A program made the position numbers and the translations under genes. The notes under the pieces were generated by a model. That model did no database searches. It worked only from the letters and a program-made list of their open reading frames with translations, and was not told the origin of the DNA. From Stratiformator vulcanicus (lineage in GTDB: Bacteria; Planctomycetota; Planctomycetia; Planctomycetales; Planctomycetaceae), in NCBI RefSeq assembly GCF_007744515.1, contig NZ_CP036268.1, forward strand, positions 4,272,833-4,336,832: a stretch of 64,000 nt of DNA, in the 5' to 3' direction. Shown piece after piece: positions 1,846-55,690 of the stretch (positions are counted from its first letter, which is position 1; each line of letters starts with the position of its first letter).

Positions 1846-1946
1846 GAGCACCGCTTAATGGAAAGCGGTGCTCCAGCGGGGAGGCGATCGCGTAGAACAG
1901 TCGCGCTTCGGATCACCGCTCGATCCGCGGTTCTCAGGAACCGCGG
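1846..1946. terminator. Two hairpins between convergent glmS and pncB
   Basis: Two strong inverted repeats lie in this gap: an 11-bp stem at 1846-1856/1863-1873 (GAGCACCGCTT) and a 9-bp stem at 1925-1933/1938-1946 (CCGCGGTTC), the latter overlapping the pncB stop codon. Neither is followed by a T-run, so they are not classical intrinsic terminators. They could still shield the ends of the two convergent transcripts, or be REP-like repeats. Confidence 0.4.
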
Positions 1947-3136
1947 CTTGTTTCAGCCGTCAATGACTCGTCCTGATCCAGCGGAGCCCCCTCGAACGTC
2001 CACCGCGCGACGCGAAGCGCGTCAGGATCGCCCTGCGCTTTGGCCGGCTCGTCGCTGATCTTCACGACCGGGACACCCGCGACGCTCCACATCTTGATCA
2101 CGATGCTGAGCGACCGCCCGTCGGCGAAGTCGTTTGTGAAGTGGGTCCCGATCCCGAAGCTGACGTTGATGCGGCCTTCGAAGTGACGCCGGAGTTCAAC
2201 AGCCTTGTCGACGTCGAGTGAGTCGCTGAACACGATCGTCTTATGCTCCGGTTTCACGCCGAGCCCGTGGTAGTGAGCGATGACCCGTTCGCCGAATGCG
2301 ATTGGGTCGCCGCTGTCGTGACGCACGCCGTCGTACAGCCGCGCGAGGTCTCCTGCGAAGTCTTCGAAGAATGCCCCGGTGCCGAACGTATCGCTGAGTG
2401 CGATTCCGAGGTTGCCGCGGAACGTCCGAGCCCAGCGACGAAGCGCCTCACGGTTGGCCCGCCGCAGACCATCGAGTCCCGAGACGCCCATGATCCACTC
2501 ATGGGCCATCGTGCCGATCGGCGTCACGTCGTGCTCCCGGGCGAAATGGACGTTCGACGTTCCGACGAAACCCGACTCTCGTTTCGCGCGTTCGATGAAC
2601 AAGGACTGCACGTCGGAATTGCGTCGGCGACGCGTGCCGAAGTCGGCGAACTTGAGTCCTGCTGCGGAAAGCCGCCGCGCCTTCTCCGTCGCCAGATCGG
2701 GCTGGCCCTCCATCGACCAATCGGCTTCGCAGTGCCGGAAGTATTGCTCGCTGACGGCAGCGAGGATCGGGACCTCCCACAGGATCGAACGCCCCCACAT
2801 CCCCTGAATCGACAACTCAAGCCGACCATCCCTTCTGACCTCAAAGCTGACCTCGTCGGGGTCGAAACGGTATGACTTGAGATAGGTCAGATAGTCGGGC
2901 CGATTGAGGAACGGCATCCGACTGCGGACATATTCGATCTCCTCATCGGAGACCCGCAGCTCCGACATACGCTCCAATTCTTCGGAGAACCCGCGAACGA
3001 AGGCGTCGTTGAACCGACCGGATGGTCGTCGGTCGGTGAAGCGATACTCGACCGGCGTGCCCGGAAAGTTGTCGAGCACAGCGTGCTGCATCGTAAATTT
3101 GTAAAGGTCGTTGTCGAGCAGCGAGAGGATCGGCAT
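1934..3136 (-). CDS. pncB: Nicotinate phosphoribosyltransferase
   Basis: PncB joins nicotinate to PRPP, using ATP, to give nicotinate mononucleotide in the Preiss-Handler NAD salvage route. The 400-residue length fits the PncB subfamily. The N-terminus LLDNDLYKFTMQ is the family signature. GTMAHEWIMG carries the His that is phosphorylated during turnover, and YDGVRHDSGDP and SFGIGTHFTND are phosphate/PRPP-binding segments. It starts 23 bp downstream of the nicotinamidase-like gene on the same strand, so the two probably form an operon running nicotinamide to nicotinate to NaMN. The last ten or so codons run through a hairpin repeat. Confidence 0.95.
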   Translation of the reverse strand: MPILSLLDNDLYKFTMQHAVLDNFPGTPVEYRFTDRRPSGRFNDAFVRGFSEELERMSELRVSDEEIEYVRSRMPFLNRPDYLTYLKSYRFDPDEVSFEVRRDGRLELSIQGMWGRSILWEVPILAAVSEQYFRHCEADWSMEGQPDLATEKARRLSAAGLKFADFGTRRRRNSDVQSLFIERAKRESGFVGTSNVHFAREHDVTPIGTMAHEWIMGVSGLDGLRRANREALRRWARTFRGNLGIALSDTFGTGAFFEDFAGDLARLYDGVRHDSGDPIAFGERVIAHYHGLGVKPEHKTIVFSDSLDVDKAVELRRHFEGRINVSFGIGTHFTNDFADGRSLSIVIKMWSVAGVPVVKISDEPAKAQGDPDALRVARWTFEGAPLDQDESLTAETSRGS

Positions 3137-3159: not shown

Positions 3160-4002
3160 TCAGAAATCGGTGGTCCGGGCCGTTCGCATGCCGCGGCCCT
3201 TCAGACGTTCGGCGAACTCTGACTGCGCCGACTCGAAGCCTGGGACAGGCGAAACGGCATCGTCAAGAAGATAGGTCTTCTTCGCAAAATCGGCCTCGGG
3301 CGCGATATCAGCGAGTTGGGTCACCGTCGCAGCGACGCAGTGGGAACCGGCTTCACCGGCAACGAGGATCGTCTCGGCGGGACGCAACGCGTTGACGAAT
3401 TTCGTATTCACCTGAGTCGAAACGTCCGTCGGGTCAGGAACTTCAGCGGCGACGGCCCCGTAGTGTTCGGTGTGGGGGTTCGAGCCCTTCAGAATGTATT
3501 GTGCGGTCCGGGAATGTGATTCCTCCCAACGTCGAAGCGCATCATGCAGGGGAGGGGACACGTTATGACCGCGATGTCCGATCAGGCAGTGTGGCGGCCA
3601 GATGCAGAGCGGGCTGCGACCGCCGCGCGCAAGATCGCGGAGGTAGTCGATCGCCCCGTAGCCGGGGCGAGTGCCACGCAGCCACCCGCTCTCAGTGGGA
3701 ATCCACCGACCGTTCTCGATGTCTTCGGCGGAAATAATCGTAAAAGGCTTCGGGTGATGGCCGTCGGTATCGCGCCAGTAGACCGGATGGGCGACGTGGA
3801 TCGGATGATGCGAATCGAGCGTTACATGAATCTGGTCGATCGATTCGCCAGCCCGGTCGATCAAGTCCGCAAGCCGCCGCATGTCCGCGTCGGCTCCCGT
3901 CACAAACAGCGATCCGATCTCGGGATCGAAGAAGTCATTCTGCGGGTCAATGATAAGCAGGTGGGTTTCACCCACGGGGCTAAGCAGGTGGGTTTCACCC
4001 AC
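3160..4002 (-). CDS. Nicotinamidase/isochorismatase-family cysteine hydrolase
   Basis: Likely hydrolyses nicotinamide to nicotinate and ammonia, feeding the adjacent pncB. The expected catalytic triad is visible: Asp in DPQNDFF, Lys in ILKGSNPH, Cys in AGSHCVAATV. A metal-site-like TLDSHHPIHVAHP and a WPPHCLIGHRG segment typical of nicotinamidases are also present. At 280 residues it is longer than common PncA (about 180-220), with inserts around the metal site. The first codons come from a duplicated 25-nt repeat: two in-frame GTG starts (4002 and 3975) each begin VGETHLL. A GGAG nine bases before the first GTG favours 4002, but starting at 3975 would give a normal N-terminus. A biuret or isochorismate substrate cannot be excluded; the pncB neighbour argues for nicotinamide. 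Confidence 0.85.
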   Translation of the reverse strand: MGETHLLSPVGETHLLIIDPQNDFFDPEIGSLFVTGADADMRRLADLIDRAGESIDQIHVTLDSHHPIHVAHPVYWRDTDGHHPKPFTIISAEDIENGRWIPTESGWLRGTRPGYGAIDYLRDLARGGRSPLCIWPPHCLIGHRGHNVSPPLHDALRRWEESHSRTAQYILKGSNPHTEHYGAVAAEVPDPTDVSTQVNTKFVNALRPAETILVAGEAGSHCVAATVTQLADIAPEADFAKKTYLLDDAVSPVPGFESAQSEFAERLKGRGMRTARTTDF

Positions 4003-4005
4003 GGG
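3954..4005. repeat. Tandem duplicate of a 25-nt hairpin repeat at a gene start
   Basis: Two identical 25-nt copies (3954-3978 and 3981-4005, period 27) each contain the palindrome GTGGGTTTCACCCAC. On the minus strand each copy supplies a GTG start and the residues GETHLL of the nicotinamidase-like gene. The CCCACGGG core recurs in palindromes at 37890-37911 and 47096-47118. Confidence 0.85.
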
Positions 4006-4061
4006 CGGGTCTCCGGCTATGAACCAGGTCGTACAGCAAATCGCCTACGGTGACCGCCAAG

Positions 4062-4146
4062 TACCGGAGGTGGGACTCGAACCCACACGGGCCGTAAAGC
4101 CCAACGGATTTTGAATCCGTCGCGTCTGCCATTCCGCCACTCCGGC
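4062..4146 (-). tRNA. tRNA-Leu (anticodon CAA)
   Basis: Read on the minus strand this is an 85-nt class II tRNA. The acceptor arm is GCCGGAG pairing with CTCCGGT, the anticodon stem is ACGGA/TCCGT, and the loop TTCAAAA gives anticodon CAA (decoding UUG). A long variable arm (GGGC/GCCC) and the T arm GTGGGTTCGAGTCCCAC follow. CCA is not encoded. The first acceptor pair reads G-U. It lies between the pectate-lyase-like gene and the NAD-salvage pair, all on the minus strand. Confidence 0.95.
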
Positions 4147-9153: not shown

Positions 9154-10710
9154 TTAAGGGCTGAAGGTGTCAGAAATTTCTTCTGGACTGAGTACTCGTT
9201 GATAAATTTGGACCATCGAAATGTCGCCTGAAAACATCTTGTCGTTCTTGTGAGCGATATCCCCGAACGAACGTCCCCCGATGACGAGAGGGCGGTTCTC
9301 CTCGTCAAAATGCCCTACGACGGGCGAAACCGCCTCGAGCCTTCCGTCGACATAGAAGCGGATCACGGTCCTTTTCGGACGCAGGCTGGAGAATGTCGCA
9401 ACAGCCGAATGCCACTTTCCGTCGCCGACATCGGTATCCGCCCAGAGCTCCGGGGCTCCGGGTCCCCAATAATCGAGTTTCAGTCTGGTTCGCTCACTTT
9501 GGCCTCTTTGCTGGCGACGAAACCCCCAATTGCTCCCGAGATGTCCCGACCGCGCCAATAGGGTTTGCGCCCGCGCAACTTTCGGATCACAACGAAACCA
9601 GATCGCGACAGAAAGATTTCCGCGGAAGCCTCGAAATCGATTGGAGTTGGCAACATCGACCATTACGCGGGTAAATTCTTCGCCCCGGTCGAACCGCAAC
9701 GCCGTGTCATTCTTGTAGCGACCTTGAACAAGCCGAACACCTTCAGCCTGTCCATACCCGAAGTCGCTCCTCCCGAACGCTTGGTTCGAAACAACCGCGT
9801 TCTCATCAATCGAGTTAGGATCGAACGAATAGTAGAGGAGCAGGTCAGGATCGTTACGTGACCGACGTTCTTTTAATTCCGCTTGGACCTCCTCCTGTAC
9901 GATATCGGACAGCGATGCGACCCGGCGCGGATCGAAGTGAATTTCTCGATCAACCGGAATTAAATTGAACCGAGATTCGTCTTCCGATACTCGTGCGGCT
10001 GAGCCCTCCGACAGGCGGATTGATTTTGACGATGTCGCGAGATCGACTTCGCCTTCTTGAACATGCACCTCCATCGCGGCTTCCGGCCGCGCATTAATGG
10101 TGAATGCGGTCCCTAGATCGGTGACCTGAGCGGTCGGAGTCTGAACGACGAAGTCGCGGGCTTCCCCTTCGGCAAGTACGGAAAGCAGCCCGTATTGCAG
10201 GCGGACCGTCGTTCCATTGATTAACGCGAGCGATGCGGGACCTTCAATAGCAAGCTCCGCGCCGCCCTTCATCCGAATGCGCGCTAGTCCGTGATCCAGT
10301 GTCAGTTCGCTGATCCGCAGCGAACCGGCATCATTGAAGAGCGTTCCATCGACAGTTAAGGCCCCGGGCGATGCGGCTACGAGTTCCGCAACCGTCCGAT
10401 AGGACCATCCGTAAATTCCGAGCCCCACGCCCGCCAGCAAGGTGCAGGCGACGGTCAGCGCATAGATGACTGAATGCCGGTTCGTTAAAGGCCCCCGGCG
10501 CCTGGAGACGCTGAGTGACGCCGTCGGCAGCGCTCCGGCGGCTTCTCTAAGCCGCACGTGCTGATCCATATATTCGACATAGATCAGGCGGGCTTTGGGA
10601 TCGGAAGCGACGACCTCTTCGAGCCGAGATCGCTCGGTCGCCGAAAGTTGATCATTCGTCAGCCCGCCGAGCAGTTGGAGCAGCTCGGCCCGCGTCGCCG
10701 GCTTATTCAT
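9154..10710 (-). CDS. FecR/LamG-domain membrane protein, probable anti-sigma partner
   Basis: The ATG at 10710 overlaps the stop of the sigma-factor gene (ATGAATAA), which fixes the start and shows translational coupling; the frame is open 33 bases further but inside the sigma gene. Order of domains: a cytoplasmic N-terminal segment (MNKPATRAELLQLL, like anti-sigma zinc-finger-free domains), one membrane helix near residues 85-105 (VIYALTVACTLLAGVGLGIY), a FecR-type beta domain around residues 125-250 (TPTAQVTDLGTAFTI, VHVQEGEVDL), and a concanavalin/LamG-like jelly roll at about 290-510 (LSVAIWFRCD, WHSAVATF, IRFYVDGRLEAV, MVQIYQRVLSPEEI). By analogy with FecR it probably senses something outside, perhaps glycan via LamG, and controls the adjacent sigma factor. 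No TonB-dependent receptor is nearby. Confidence 0.88.
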   Translation of the reverse strand: MNKPATRAELLQLLGGLTNDQLSATERSRLEEVVASDPKARLIYVEYMDQHVRLREAAGALPTASLSVSRRRGPLTNRHSVIYALTVACTLLAGVGLGIYGWSYRTVAELVAASPGALTVDGTLFNDAGSLRISELTLDHGLARIRMKGGAELAIEGPASLALINGTTVRLQYGLLSVLAEGEARDFVVQTPTAQVTDLGTAFTINARPEAAMEVHVQEGEVDLATSSKSIRLSEGSAARVSEDESRFNLIPVDREIHFDPRRVASLSDIVQEEVQAELKERRSRNDPDLLLYYSFDPNSIDENAVVSNQAFGRSDFGYGQAEGVRLVQGRYKNDTALRFDRGEEFTRVMVDVANSNRFRGFRGNLSVAIWFRCDPKVARAQTLLARSGHLGSNWGFRRQQRGQSERTRLKLDYWGPGAPELWADTDVGDGKWHSAVATFSSLRPKRTVIRFYVDGRLEAVSPVVGHFDEENRPLVIGGRSFGDIAHKNDKMFSGDISMVQIYQRVLSPEEISDTFSP

Positions 10711-11314
10711 GGTGATCCTCCAGCCGGAGGATGCGATCAACACAAAGAAAGAGCGTCGTCTGTATTCGAGTCAGCGCCTTATAGACCGAGCTGATCGGTC
10801 TGCCCAGACGCTCGGCGCCGGCTTTAATTGTTGAGTCAGACTGATAGCACTCTTTAACGAGTGATTGGTCTTCACGCGGAAGCCGCTCCAGACATGTCGC
10901 CAAAGCTTCGCGTCGCAAGTCGATCAGCTCGCGATAGCCCTGCTGGCTTGCGGCGATCCGAGTGACGGTCTCGTCATCGAAAAGCAGTGAGTCGCGGGAG
11001 ACGCGGCGTCGGTACTGGCGAACCTGATTGAGTGCCACGCCACAAGCCCAGCGGGTGAAGTCGCGTGATCGGTCGTACTCGCTGAAACTCCGCCACAGCG
11101 CGAGGCACGTCTCCTGATAAATCTCTTCGGCGACCGACTCTTTTCCCACCAATGTCAGAATCCACGAGAAAACGGGTCGGTTCGACTTGGCGAAAAGCTC
11201 AACGAACAATTCATCCGGCCCGCCACCGGATTCCGGGCGGTCGTGTTCCACGCTTGAAAAGTCGGATTGGGTCAATCGGGACGCCATGACTGCAAATTCA
11301 GTCTGTGAGCTCAC
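10703..11314 (-). CDS. ECF-type RNA polymerase sigma factor
   Basis: A 203-residue sigma-70 family protein of the type common in Planctomycetes and Verrucomicrobia. Region 2 is visible as LFAKSNRPVFSWILTLVGKESVAEEIYQET with the -10-recognition stretch FTRWACGVALNQVRQYRRR. Region 4 is LPREDQSLVKECYQSDSTIKAGAERLGRPISSVYKALTRIQ, a helix-turn-helix, shown here as two shorter pieces in the text (LPREDQSLVKECYQ and AERLGRPISSVYKALTRI). The start is GTG at 11314; an ATG at 11287 is an alternative. It overlaps the FecR/LamG gene by 8 bp and probably directs RNA polymerase to its own and the downstream surface-protein genes. Confidence 0.92.
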   Translation of the reverse strand: MSSQTEFAVMASRLTQSDFSSVEHDRPESGGGPDELFVELFAKSNRPVFSWILTLVGKESVAEEIYQETCLALWRSFSEYDRSRDFTRWACGVALNQVRQYRRRVSRDSLLFDDETVTRIAASQQGYRELIDLRREALATCLERLPREDQSLVKECYQSDSTIKAGAERLGRPISSVYKALTRIQTTLFLCVDRILRLEDHHE

Positions 11315-11526
11315 GCCGTGAATTGGGTCGGATGGGTTAATACCTCTTCATGTATTGACGGGAGTCGACAAAATTGTCCGATAAAAAACCCCGCGAGTCG
11401 TTCAAAGACATCGTAAAACGTGATTGTCATACCGCTTATGCAATATCAGCGATCGCCGAATCATCGGCCGGGGCTATTGAAGACCAGCGACATCCAATAG
11501 CAGGGCAGTTCCGGCAAAGCGTCAGC

Positions 11527-12402
11527 TCAGCCGTCGATCGCCGAGTCTTGGCCGTTCAGGCAGAACAATGAGAGCCAGTAGTCGTTGACGGCTCGCCTGC
11601 GAAATGCGGACATCGCAAGGCTGATCACTTTCAGCCGCAGGGGGATGCGATCGAGATTGCGGACCGCGACGTGCTTCAGATTCACCCGATCGACGCATCG
11701 AAATTGATCGCCCCACCGTTCGATCGCTCGCGTATCCTCAATTGACCAGGTGAACGTCGCCTCGAAAAATCGCTTCATCTCGTGCCGGCCCTGCTGCCGC
11801 AGGCCCCGCGACGTCAACGTATCGAACGCCACCATTGCCCCGGGTAACCGGCTTGCGATCGTCCCGAATAAATCTCGAATCTGCGGTTCATCCAGATACA
11901 TCAGCACCGCTTCGATGTTAACGAACCATGGCCCGCCGGCTTCGGCAGCGACATCGAGCCACTGCTCATCGAGCACCGACGACGCCAGCATCGTGCGGCG
12001 GGGGGACTCGTCAAAAAAGTTCCGTCGCAGCGCGATCGAATCCGGGAGATCGAGATCAATCCAGCGAACCGAACCGTTATCGAGTCGCTCGAATCGGCTG
12101 CTCAAGCCAGCACCAACTTCAACGACGGTTCCGGCGGGATGATCCGCCAGAAATGACTTGATCCACGCATCGAACTGCAGCGTCCGCAGGGCGATGCCGA
12201 CGCGGCTCATGGTCGCCCGGCGAAACTGCGCGAAGTCGAAATCAATCGCCTCGCAGATTTCGACTGCTTTGGGATCGCACAGAATCGGGGACCGCTGCTG
12301 TGACTCCGTCGCGCGGGCCCACAGCGGGATCAGCATCGTTTCCTGCACCGTCCCGAGTTCCGGGCGGATCTTCTCAGAAGGGTCGGACGCAGCTACTGAC
12401 AC
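11527..12402 (-). CDS. Class I SAM-dependent methyltransferase, leucine carboxyl methyltransferase-like
   Basis: A 291-residue protein of the PPM1/LCMT-like family, which also contains small-molecule O-methyltransferases of polyketide pathways. The SAM-binding motif I is VVEVGAGLSSRFERL, motif II is WIDLDLPDSIALRR, and FVNIEAVLMYLDEPQIRDLF matches the typical VAEGVLMYL segment after it. It has no obvious operon partner: it is separated by about 210 bp from the sigma gene and about 500 bp from the next gene upstream. The start is a GTG without a clear ribosome binding site. The substrate cannot be predicted. Confidence 0.82.
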   Translation of the reverse strand: MSVAASDPSEKIRPELGTVQETMLIPLWARATESQQRSPILCDPKAVEICEAIDFDFAQFRRATMSRVGIALRTLQFDAWIKSFLADHPAGTVVEVGAGLSSRFERLDNGSVRWIDLDLPDSIALRRNFFDESPRRTMLASSVLDEQWLDVAAEAGGPWFVNIEAVLMYLDEPQIRDLFGTIASRLPGAMVAFDTLTSRGLRQQGRHEMKRFFEATFTWSIEDTRAIERWGDQFRCVDRVNLKHVAVRNLDRIPLRLKVISLAMSAFRRRAVNDYWLSLFCLNGQDSAIDG

Positions 12403-12900
12403 GACGGTGTCTCACGAGGCCATTTGTGACCCGCAACGTGCGAAGTGAGCGGAGCGGACGCCCTTCGCGGAGAGCGGAATGCAAATAGCAACTTAGGCAA
12501 TTTCCACTGCCCCTGCGAGCGGTCGCGGATCAAAGACAGGCCGAAGGACCGGCGAAAGCCCAATGACTGTCGCTTCGATCCGACCTACTTTCAACGAACA
12601 GATCGTTGTGGCAACGATAGCCCGAAGCGCCAGCGAGGCCGCGTCTGAGTGAATTCGAGCCGATTGCCGAACGACCCGCCTGGATCTTTCAACGGGAAAT
12701 CGACGGCTGCGTGGTGACACGCCAAGCGTCTCACAACTGTAGCGACTCACATTCTGACTGAAGCCGAAGACTGTTGAGCCACGACGCCAGAATTGGGCTT
12801 ACACCCGCTTTAAGGACGCGAGATGTTGGGAGAGATTTCACCGACATCATTCTGCCTCGCTGGCGCGTCGGGCTATCCGCAACCGTGCTCGCTCGTGAAC
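12403..12900. other. Gene-free stretch holding one TIR element
   Basis: No convincing protein-coding gene is seen in these 498 bp; short open frames on the minus strand (up to 85 codons at 12493-12750) resemble nothing I recognise and run across the repeat. The main content is the inverted-repeat element at 12616-12877. Confidence 0.6.
12616..12877. repeat. 262-bp element with 24-bp terminal inverted repeats
   Basis: The left arm at 12616-12639 (GATAGCCCGAAGCGCCAGCG...) and the right arm at 12854-12877 are reverse complements over 24 bases with one mismatch. The arm core CCCGAAGCG-CAGCGAGG resembles a repeat I recall as very common in planctomycete genomes. There is no transposase inside. 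Probably a MITE or REP-type non-autonomous element. Confidence 0.75.
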
Positions 12901-19249: not shown

Positions 19250-19330
19250 CAACGTCCCGCGGAACTGACTCTGTGAGAGATACCCGCAGTGTAACCGGCC
19301 CAACCCGTCCGGCAAGATTCCAGCCCCGTT

Positions 19331-19376
19331 CAGCTCTCAGCTCTCAGCTCTCGACTCTCGACTCTCGACTCTCGAC
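19331..19376. repeat. Heptanucleotide tandem repeat (CAGCTCT/CGACTCT)
   Basis: Three CAGCTCT units followed by three and a half CGACTCT units, in perfect 7-bp phase, directly beside the terminator of the metalloprotease gene. On the minus strand this reads GTCGAGA/GCTGAGA. It resembles the other 7-bp arrays at 22027, 23041, 39207 and 46097. Confidence 0.9.
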
Positions 19377-22015: not shown

Positions 22016-22026
22016 GGCGGGGGAAT

Positions 22027-22117
22027 GTCAGAAGTCGGAAGTCGGAAGTCGGAAGTCGGAAGTCGGAAGTCGGAAGTCGGAAGTCGGAAGTCGGAAGTCA
22101 GGAGTCAGGAGTCGGGC
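22027..22117. repeat. Heptanucleotide tandem array, 13 units (GTCGGAA)
   Basis: One GTCAGAA, nine perfect GTCGGAA, two GTCAGGA and one GTCGGGC in uninterrupted 7-bp phase. The degenerate units at both ends and perfect units in the middle are typical of a tandem array homogenised from the centre. Confidence 0.95.
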
Positions 22118-22457: not shown

Positions 22458-22529
22458 CGGAATTTATTAATTTCACTTTCGTAGTCGGCCTTCAACGATC
22501 TCATATTGTTCTCAAACAGTAAATCAAAG

Positions 22530-22664
22530 TGTGGCCCGGACATCGTCCGGGTCGCGTAGAGCACTCAGGCAGAGATGTCCTTACCAGTCCGGCGTCCAAT
22601 GTTAATTGTGGCCGGCAGCTGAATGCTCTGGCGGCTGCGCCGCACGGACGGTGTCCGTGCCACT
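22530..22664. repeat. 135-bp AGTGGC-type TIR element, copy B
   Basis: Same element as copy A, 213 bp further on. It lacks a few bases of the left inner arm (the CGACAAG part) and begins TGTGGCCCGG. The centre (AGAGATGTCCTTACCAGTCC) is nearly identical to copy C. Confidence 0.85.
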
Positions 22665-22714
22665 CGGGGATTATTAAGTTCTTTCCAGTTGGCAGCCTCT
22701 CACTCTCTTTTAGT

Positions 22715-22769
22715 GTTCTCGAACGGCATCTTGTGCCTGTCGGCACCCGGCCAAAATTGGCCGGGCTAC
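22715..22769. repeat. Single arm of the GTAGCCCGGCC-type element
   Basis: A 55-bp segment starting GTTCTCGAACGGCATCTTGT and ending in the hairpin CCCGGCCAAAATTGGCCGGG plus CTAC. It is near-identical to 22971-23025 and is the reverse complement of the left end at 22148. It sits just before copy C of the other element, so both form a composite repeat of about 250 bp. Confidence 0.8.
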
Positions 22770-22778
22770 CCGTTTAAG

Positions 22779-22920
22779 AGTGGCCCGGACATCGTCCGGG
22801 TCGCGCAGCGACAAGAGCATCTGGGCAGAGATGTCCTTACCAGTCCGGCGTCCAATGTTAATTATGGCCGGTAGCTGAATACTCTGGCGGCTGCGCCGCA
22901 CGGACGTTGTCCGTGCCACT
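22779..22920. repeat. 142-bp AGTGGC-type TIR element, copy C
   Basis: Best-preserved copy. The left arm (22779-22820) and the reverse complement of the right arm (22879-22920) match at roughly 33-34 of 42 positions; each arm folds on itself (CCCGGACATCGTCCGGG; GCACGGACGTTGTCCGTGC). Confidence 0.9.
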
Positions 22921-22970
22921 CGAAATTCATTAATTTCACTCTCGCAGTCGGCCTCCAACTCTTTCTTAAT

Positions 22971-23025
22971 GTTCTCGAACGGCATCTTGTGCCTGTCGGC
23001 ACCCGGCCATGAAAGGCCGGGCTAC
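22971..23025. repeat. Second single arm of the GTAGCCCGGCC-type element
   Basis: Near-copy of 22715-22769, ending in the hairpin CCCGGCCATGAAAGGCCGGG and CTAC. The sequence before it (TTAATTTCACTCTCGCAGTC) also repeats the spacer after copies A and B. Confidence 0.8.
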
Positions 23026-23040
23026 TCGTGTCTTGCTAAT

Positions 23041-23072
23041 AGCTGACAGCCGATAGCCGACAGCCGACAGCT
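23041..23072. repeat. Short heptamer repeat (AGCCGAC/AGCCGAT)
   Basis: AGCTGAC, AGCCGAT, AGCCGAC, AGCCGAC and AGCTT in 7-bp phase. Same periodicity and purine/GC pattern as the array at 22027. Confidence 0.8.
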
Positions 23073-46096: not shown

Positions 46097-46127
46097 GAAA
46101 GCGGAGAGCGGAAAGCCGAAAGCGGAA
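46097..46127. repeat. Heptamer repeat between sdhA and sdhB
   Basis: GAAAGCG, GAGAGCG, GAAAGCC, GAAAGCG, GAA in 7-bp phase, starting four bases after the sdhA stop. The whole 107-bp spacer between sdhA and sdhB holds no gene. Confidence 0.8.
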
Positions 46128-54769: not shown

Positions 54770-55690
54770 TCCACGGGCCTTCTCCTCCCGGAAGAAGGCG
54801 CCCGAAGGCGGATGAGGGCACGTCGTGCCTCTGTGCCTGCGGCAGCGACAATGGGCCTTCTCCCTCGGGAGAAGGTGGCCGATAGGCCGGATGAGGGGTC
54901 AGTGGGGCGGTGATCGAACGGCACCGCTGTCTGCTCCTCAGCTCTCCTCAAGAGCAACGCACCGCGGCGGTCTATCGAACCGCCGCTACATCCCCTCACC
55001 CCAACCCTCTCCCGAGCGGAGAGGGGGCACTGCGCGCCTTTGTGCCTGCGGCAGCGACCACGGGCCTTCTCCACTCGGGAGAACGTGGCCGATAGGCCGG
55101 ATGAGGGGATGGTGGGGCACTCACAGGACGCCACCGCTGTTTGCTCTTAATTTCACGCAAGAGAGCATCCTATCGCGGTTGTTCGATATACCTCCGCCGC
55201 ATCCCCTCACCCCAACCCTCTCCCGAGCGGAGAGGGGGCACTGCGTACCTTCGTGCCTGCGGCAGCATTAGCGAGCCTTCTCCACTCGGGAGAAGGTGGC
55301 CGAAGGCCGGATGAGGGGTCAGTGGGGCGGTGATCGAACGGCACCGCTGTTTGCTCTTCATCTCTACCCAAAGAGCAGCGCACCGCGGCGGCCAATCAAC
55401 CTGCCGCCGAACCCCCTCACCCCAACCCTCTCCCGAGCGGAGAGGGGGCACTTCGTGCCATTTTGCCTGCGGCAGCGACAATGGGCCTTCTCCTCTCGGG
55501 AGAAGGTGGCCGAAGGCCGGATGAGGGGTCAGTGGGGCGGTGATCGAACGGCACCGCTGTTTGCTCTTCAACTCTACCCAAAGAGCAGCGCACCGCGGCG
55601 GCCAATCAACCCGCCGCCGCACCCCCTCACCCCAACCCTCTCCCGAGCGGAGAGGGGGTACTGCGTACCTGCGGCAGCAACCGCGGGTCG
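54770..55690. repeat. 210-bp tandem repeat array (about 4.3 units)
   Basis: The landmark ATGAGGGG recurs at 54891, 55101, 55311 and 55521, exactly 210 bp apart, and TGCCTGCGGCAGC keeps the same phase. Each unit carries the palindromes CCTTCTCCxCTCGGGAGAAGG, GGCCGATAGGCC, TGCTCTT...AAGAGCA and CCTCTCCCGAGCGGAGAGG. The last two units are the most alike. Single diverged copy at 49599-49885. Open frames across the array in several directions follow from the 210-bp period being a multiple of three. Confidence 0.93.

Follow-up and report, generated by a model that had tools for sequence, protein, structure and literature searches.

The gene for a nicotinamidase-like protein in Stratiformator vulcanicus begins within a short tandem repeat, each copy of which carries a GTG codon and a small inverted repeat, and this raises the question of which GTG starts translation and whether the repeat regulates that choice. 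The locus was analyzed within a 64,000-nt stretch of the genome (the window, to which all positions refer unless stated otherwise). An initial annotation had proposed that a duplicated palindrome supplies two alternative starts together with a hairpin that would hide or expose them.

The repeat consists of two 25-nt copies that are 100% identical and spaced 27 nt, or nine codons, apart, and TRF agreed in reporting an array at 3954-4005 with a period of 27, 1.9 copies and 100% matches. The minus-strand sequence of each copy is CCC, followed by the codons GTG, GGT, GAA, ACC, CAC, CTG and CTT and a final A, and it is translated in frame as the GTG and then GETHLL (VGETHLLSPVGETHLLIIDPQNDFF). The earlier description of a 25-nt repeat present twice in tandem, with GTG and GETHLL in both copies, is therefore correct, and the locus, with adjacent identical units and a period that is a multiple of three, has the form of an in-frame tandem duplication. 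The unit had also been called a 25-nt palindrome. An inverted repeat with a 6-bp stem and a 3-nt loop is indeed present in each copy, but it is confined to the central 15 of the 25 nt, and such hairpins are frequent, perfect 6-bp/3-nt examples numbering 212 in 459,706 unmasked bases sampled from the same genome. When up to three mismatches were allowed, just these two copies were found within the window, where 100 shuffles gave an expectation of 0. The duplication is beyond chance, and the palindrome within it is unremarkable.

Features of the repeat locus and its neighbors, in window coordinates (all on the minus strand).
Feature	Position	Strand	Remarks
Distal (upstream) 25-nt copy	3981..4005	-	Extra nine codons, M/V-GETHLLSP; 9-residue gap in L005
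Proximal (gene-side) 25-nt copy	3954..3978	-	Probable ancestral N-terminus VGETHLL(I); aligns with L005 MEKIHLV(V)
Hairpin core (15 nt), distal copy	3988..4002	-	GTGGGT-GAA-ACCCAC
Hairpin core (15 nt), proximal copy	3961..3975	-	GTGGGT-GAA-ACCCAC
Distal GTG, likeliest start codon	4000..4002	-	GGAG 8 nt upstream
Proximal GTG, probably an internal valine codon now	3973..3975	-	Position equivalent to the L005 start
Shine-Dalgarno-like GGAG	4011..4014	-	8 nt before distal GTG; duplex -6.6
Nicotinamidase-like gene, isochorismatase-fold cysteine hydrolase, 280 aa	3160..4002	-	Fold, residues, weak profile scores
Nicotinate phosphoribosyltransferase (pncB), 400 aa, downstream neighbor	1934..3136	-	Profile 448.6 bits, cut-off 379
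tRNA-Leu (CAA)	4061..4146	-	Ends 58 nt before distal GTG, same strand

The identity of the encoded protein was examined by profile, sequence and structure comparison. Its scores fall below the thresholds of both curated families that were compared, at 23 bits against Pfam PF00857 (cut-off 27) and 21.2 against NCBIfam NF008623 (cut-off 174), and a sequence search of the PDB matched one chain, yeast nicotinamidase, with an E-value of 0.00053. For a structure model built from a 13-sequence alignment (mean pLDDT 70.4), the best Foldseek matches were nicotinamidases (PDB 2wta/2wt9 and 2h0r; E-value 2.3e-9, TM-scores of 0.52 for the query and 0.66 for the target), which places the protein in the nicotinamidase/isochorismatase fold. 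D19, K172 and C222, which we take to be the Asp-Lys-Cys catalytic residues, and D63, H65 and H72, presumably the metal Asp/His set, are invariant across the 13 aligned sequences. The protein thus resembles the hydrolases of this superfamily in its fold, in these residues and in its pncB neighbor, but differs from them in its sub-threshold family scores and in its length, 280 aa compared with 207-216 in the top five solved chains. The position of pncB next on the same strand fits a role in NAD salvage, and together with the fold it suggests that the enzyme would deamidate nicotinamide. The gene is sparsely distributed: at E ≤ 0.001 a match was found in 2 of the 170 genomes from the order, in 6 of 397 genomes in a sample of the class and in 9 of 392 genomes in a sample of the phylum, each count including the genome studied here, and the second match in the order is a weak partial one. 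Relatives at about 40% identity come from Photobacterium and from records of large Variovorax plasmids, and a search of the viral_contigs proteins returned no relative of the nicotinamidase-like protein. The patchy distribution is possibly the result of horizontal transfer.

Relatives of the protein were used to locate its original N-terminus. The closest one found, L005, belongs to the same phylum and is 51% identical. Its protein begins M-E-K-I-H-L-V-V-I-D-P-Q. Counted from the start codon, the proximal copy reads V-G-E-T-H-L-L-I-I-D-P-Q over an equal length, and the proximal GTG is aligned with the ATG of L005. Opposite the distal copy the alignment has a 9-residue N-terminal gap, in addition to three further short gaps that lie more internally. 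In 14 Photobacterium relatives (39-43% identity for the 11 that were aligned) an ATG lies five codons ahead of TSLLIIDPQ. The predicted model places the first beta strand at residues 13-18, THLLII, which are encoded by the proximal copy, and residues 1-10 have a mean pLDDT of 45. Taken together, the L005 alignment and the position of the first strand indicate that the proximal copy corresponds to the ancestral N-terminus and part of the structural core, and that the distal copy represents an additional tail. The distal copy is probably a nine-residue insertion that forms a floppy N-terminal tail, MGETHLLSP. The suggestion that the real N-terminus (IDPQNDFF) follows directly after the repeat is accordingly off by one unit, since the THLL of the proximal copy already lies within strand 1.

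Direct repeats with a period of 9-90 were then sought around the homologous place in the relatives. Of 25 relatives, 23 were validly placed; L030 and L031 were dropped because they had been placed out of frame, and the weak partial relatives L004, L012 and L033 lay outside the scan. For L006-L011, L026 and L032 the scan covers the homologous place and not a proven start codon, the frame being open further upstream by 209, 67 and 107 codons in L006, L007 and L011, respectively. The longest exact direct repeat was 6-10 nt in the 23 relatives, as compared with 25 nt here, so that none (0/23) has a repeat longer than 10 nt, and L005 has a gap in place of the distal copy. All 23 validly scanned relatives are thus single-copy at the homologous place, an outcome that the initial annotation had itself named as telling against its proposal.

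A palindromic tandem repeat next to a tRNA gene might also be a dispersed element of the REP or MITE type that was inserted at the gene start and then duplicated. Such elements are expected in many genomic copies, but the exact 15-nt core occurs only twice in the 5,228,745-base genome (one contig), both times at 3954-4005. With up to three mismatches the core matches 118 places, a 1.8-fold excess over the 66 found for a backwards control; among the matches listed, one place has 1 mismatch and nine have 2, and no repeat family is apparent among them. The 25-mer has no exact copy in viral_contigs, and an Rfam scan of the region matched the tRNA as its sole hit, with no structured-RNA family. Given also that the repeat codes for residues that align with those of relatives and form beta strand 1, a mobile origin of this kind is extremely improbable. 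The T-arm of the tRNA-Leu (GTGGGTTCGAGTCCCACCT; GTGGGT..CCCACCT) resembles the repeat unit, with a score that 85 of 5000 letter-shuffled versions of the unit also reach. This likeness is weak and probably due to chance, the codons concerned matching those of relatives; no tRNA gene was present in any of the 12 relative loci scanned.

The same searches bear on the idea that the pair of identical 15-bp inverted repeats, spaced by 27 bp, serves as operator sites for a regulator of the nicotinamidase-like and pncB genes. The presence of pncB downstream makes an NAD-salvage regulon plausible, but the genome has no third exact site, the tandem repeat is missing from the 23 validly scanned relatives, and the site lies inside coding sequence, where codons that relatives have in common with it account for the palindrome. 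We consider an operator pair scarcely credible. That the second copy is an artefact of assembly is a slim chance; the duplicate is short and perfect, as an artefact might be, but the genome is a single contig and the spacing is in frame, although neither of these is a direct test.

Short exact tandem repeats also occur elsewhere and are part of the background of this genome. In a 464,000-base sample nine places were found, including 3954-4005, when repeats of at least 20 nt with a period of 4-200 were counted after a complexity filter and with one array of 36-nt repeats set aside. A CRISPR-like array with a 36-nt repeat and a 71-74 nt period lies at 10514-12800 of locus L036 (about 510.5-512.8 kb in the same genome), and the 4 kb immediately preceding the 36-nt-repeat array of L036 read as N. 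The window itself holds longer tandem arrays, which TRF reported as a 210-nt unit repeated 4.1 times at 54816-55670 and a 256-nt unit repeated 2.0 times at 22527-23029, as well as about 13 repeats of the 7-nt unit GGAAGTC at 22022-22115; other arrays with a 7-nt period lie at 19330-19376, 23041-23071 and 46097-46127.

The choice of start codon was approached through the open frame and the ribosome-binding signals. Ahead of the distal GTG, 14 sense codons without ATG, GTG or TTG lead back to an in-frame TAG, and up to the DPQND motif the open frame has no such codons besides the two GTGs of the repeat. ATT and ATA, which are rarer as starts, do occur in frame upstream; these aside, translation of the DPQND-containing protein must begin at one GTG or the other, and the view that the repeat supplies the start codons is upheld. 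The two GTGs differ in their upstream signals. No Shine-Dalgarno word was found ahead of the proximal GTG in a scan of 4-12 nt, and the GGAG that precedes the repeat is suitably spaced for the distal GTG only. Start statistics came from a 464-kb sample of the same genome, in which ORFs of 200 aa or more were called by a simple procedure. Shine-Dalgarno words 4-12 nt upstream accompany 52 of the 246 first ATGs in this sample, as against 42 of its 819 internal ATG/GTG codons. The signal is real in this genome, yet far from universal. Duplex energies were calculated with an assumed standard anti-Shine-Dalgarno sequence, because a search of the genome did not turn up the exact 3′ end of the 16S sequence. 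The value for the distal start is equalled in strength by 27 of the 246 first ATGs and 46 of the 819 internal codons; at the proximal start it is +1.3, a value that 237 of the 246 first ATGs equal or surpass in strength. Taken together, these signals suggest that translation most likely starts at the distal, Shine-Dalgarno-served GTG and gives one 280-residue protein. Planctomycetes are reported to have a small share of Shine-Dalgarno genes and to show signs of leaderless or RPS1-type initiation (PMC5397173), so the proximal GTG might be used even though it lacks such a word.

Use of either GTG, giving 280- and 271-residue forms in a ratio set by the two hairpins or by one long joint hairpin, was therefore weighed together with the predicted RNA folding. 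The proximal GTG, which is in frame with the distal one, is the homologue of the L005 start, and pairs of N-terminal proteoforms are known in bacteria, with 26 curated genes in Salmonella (PMC11005335). A gene with two starts would be expected to have a Shine-Dalgarno-type signal at each, and here only the distal GTG has one, although initiation independent of such a signal is possible. In a 132-nt context the predicted fold joins arms of both copies into one long stem (-44.9 kcal/mol, z -2.0), a result that 9 of 200 shuffles also reach. The 52-nt repeat pair alone folds at -21.3 kcal/mol (z -3.5, 0/200 shuffles as good), a single 27-nt unit has a z of -2.2 (7/200), and the segment 3981-4043, which contains the distal copy alone, is unremarkable (z -0.5). 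Around the proximal GTG the predicted energy is -21.3, where letter-shuffles average -13.7 (sd 2.9). Of 246 sampled genes, 22 and 21 have a start region at least as stable as the two here (-21.1 and -21.3, respectively), which places these in about the top 9%. These z-scores are not proof of selection, because two identical palindromes must pair well by construction.

Pairing at the ribosome-binding site was also predicted. Within 190 nt of context the predicted pairing is 0.94-0.99 for three of the four GGAG bases and 0.99-1.00 for the distal GTG, and in 65-nt windows start-codon pairing is 0.85 for the distal and 1.00 for the proximal GTG, as compared with 0.22-0.88 in L005 and the 14 Photobacterium relatives. 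The predicted fold buries the two starts to the same extent and so does not distinguish between them. Neither L005 nor any of the 14 Photobacterium loci has its start covered by a perfect 5-bp stem (loop 3-8), and the structure is thus not conserved in relatives as a structured 5′ RNA switch would be expected to be. Known structured RNAs were ruled out by the Rfam result, which gave no hint of a ligand, partner or exposed state either, and a terminator-like call on the proximal hairpin was given no weight, as the region has 2 such sites and shuffles have 1.1 (sd 1.1). The palindrome itself arises because the start codons GTG-GGT are complementary to the threonine-histidine codons ACC-CAC; among the hairpin codons, the histidine (CAC) is common to L005 and the threonine (ACC) is common to the Photobacterium proteins. 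The inverted repeat may lower translation somewhat, as the predicted pairing suggests, but it does not appear to be a dedicated switch or to have a regulatory function. Of the proposed hairpin that hides or exposes the starts, what stands is that both GTGs are predicted to be paired; the switch does not, and the claim of two alternative starts finds a Shine-Dalgarno-like word at the distal GTG only. On this evidence the use of both starts is unlikely.

The reading preferred here, and one that we regard as probable, is an in-frame tandem duplication of 27 bp, or nine codons, of the gene's own start region, in which the distal GTG is now the start and which reflects ordinary mutation rather than a translation switch. 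Replication slippage or unequal exchange would have copied the 27 bp that span the start codon and the codons for the initial residues. The GGAG would have stayed in place upstream and would now serve the GTG of the distal copy, so that, with the ribosome-binding word outside the duplicated unit, the new copy would take over as the start. The start in use would thereby have moved one unit upstream, the old start GTG becoming an internal valine codon and the protein gaining its nine-residue, likely unstructured tail.

Short in-frame tandem duplications that arise by replication slippage in bacterial coding sequences form a general class. The present case resembles them in having an exact short unit, a period that is a multiple of three, no counterpart in the scanned relatives and a terminus expected to tolerate extension, but differs in that the unit contains a start codon and a small inverted repeat. 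Like the N-terminal proteoform pairs of PMC11005335, the gene has two in-frame candidate starts, here both GUG; unlike them, it owes these to a duplication, has a Shine-Dalgarno-like word at the upstream start only and is described here from its sequence. Among the titles and abstract openings retrieved in a literature search, duplications of a start region were not met, which describes those titles and openings and makes no claim of absence from print.

A more elaborate possibility is that the gene has two starts whose use is set by a balance between two small hairpins and one long hairpin, for example through temperature or ribosome loading, and that slippage between the 25-bp copies toggles one-start and two-start states. 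This is very unlikely. If two proteoforms were made, the locus would be a neat, young dual-start gene. Under the preferred reading of a start-region duplication, the locus would illustrate on a small scale that a start codon is able to shift upstream with the gene left intact, and it cautions that a palindrome at a start codon may be merely two complementary codons.
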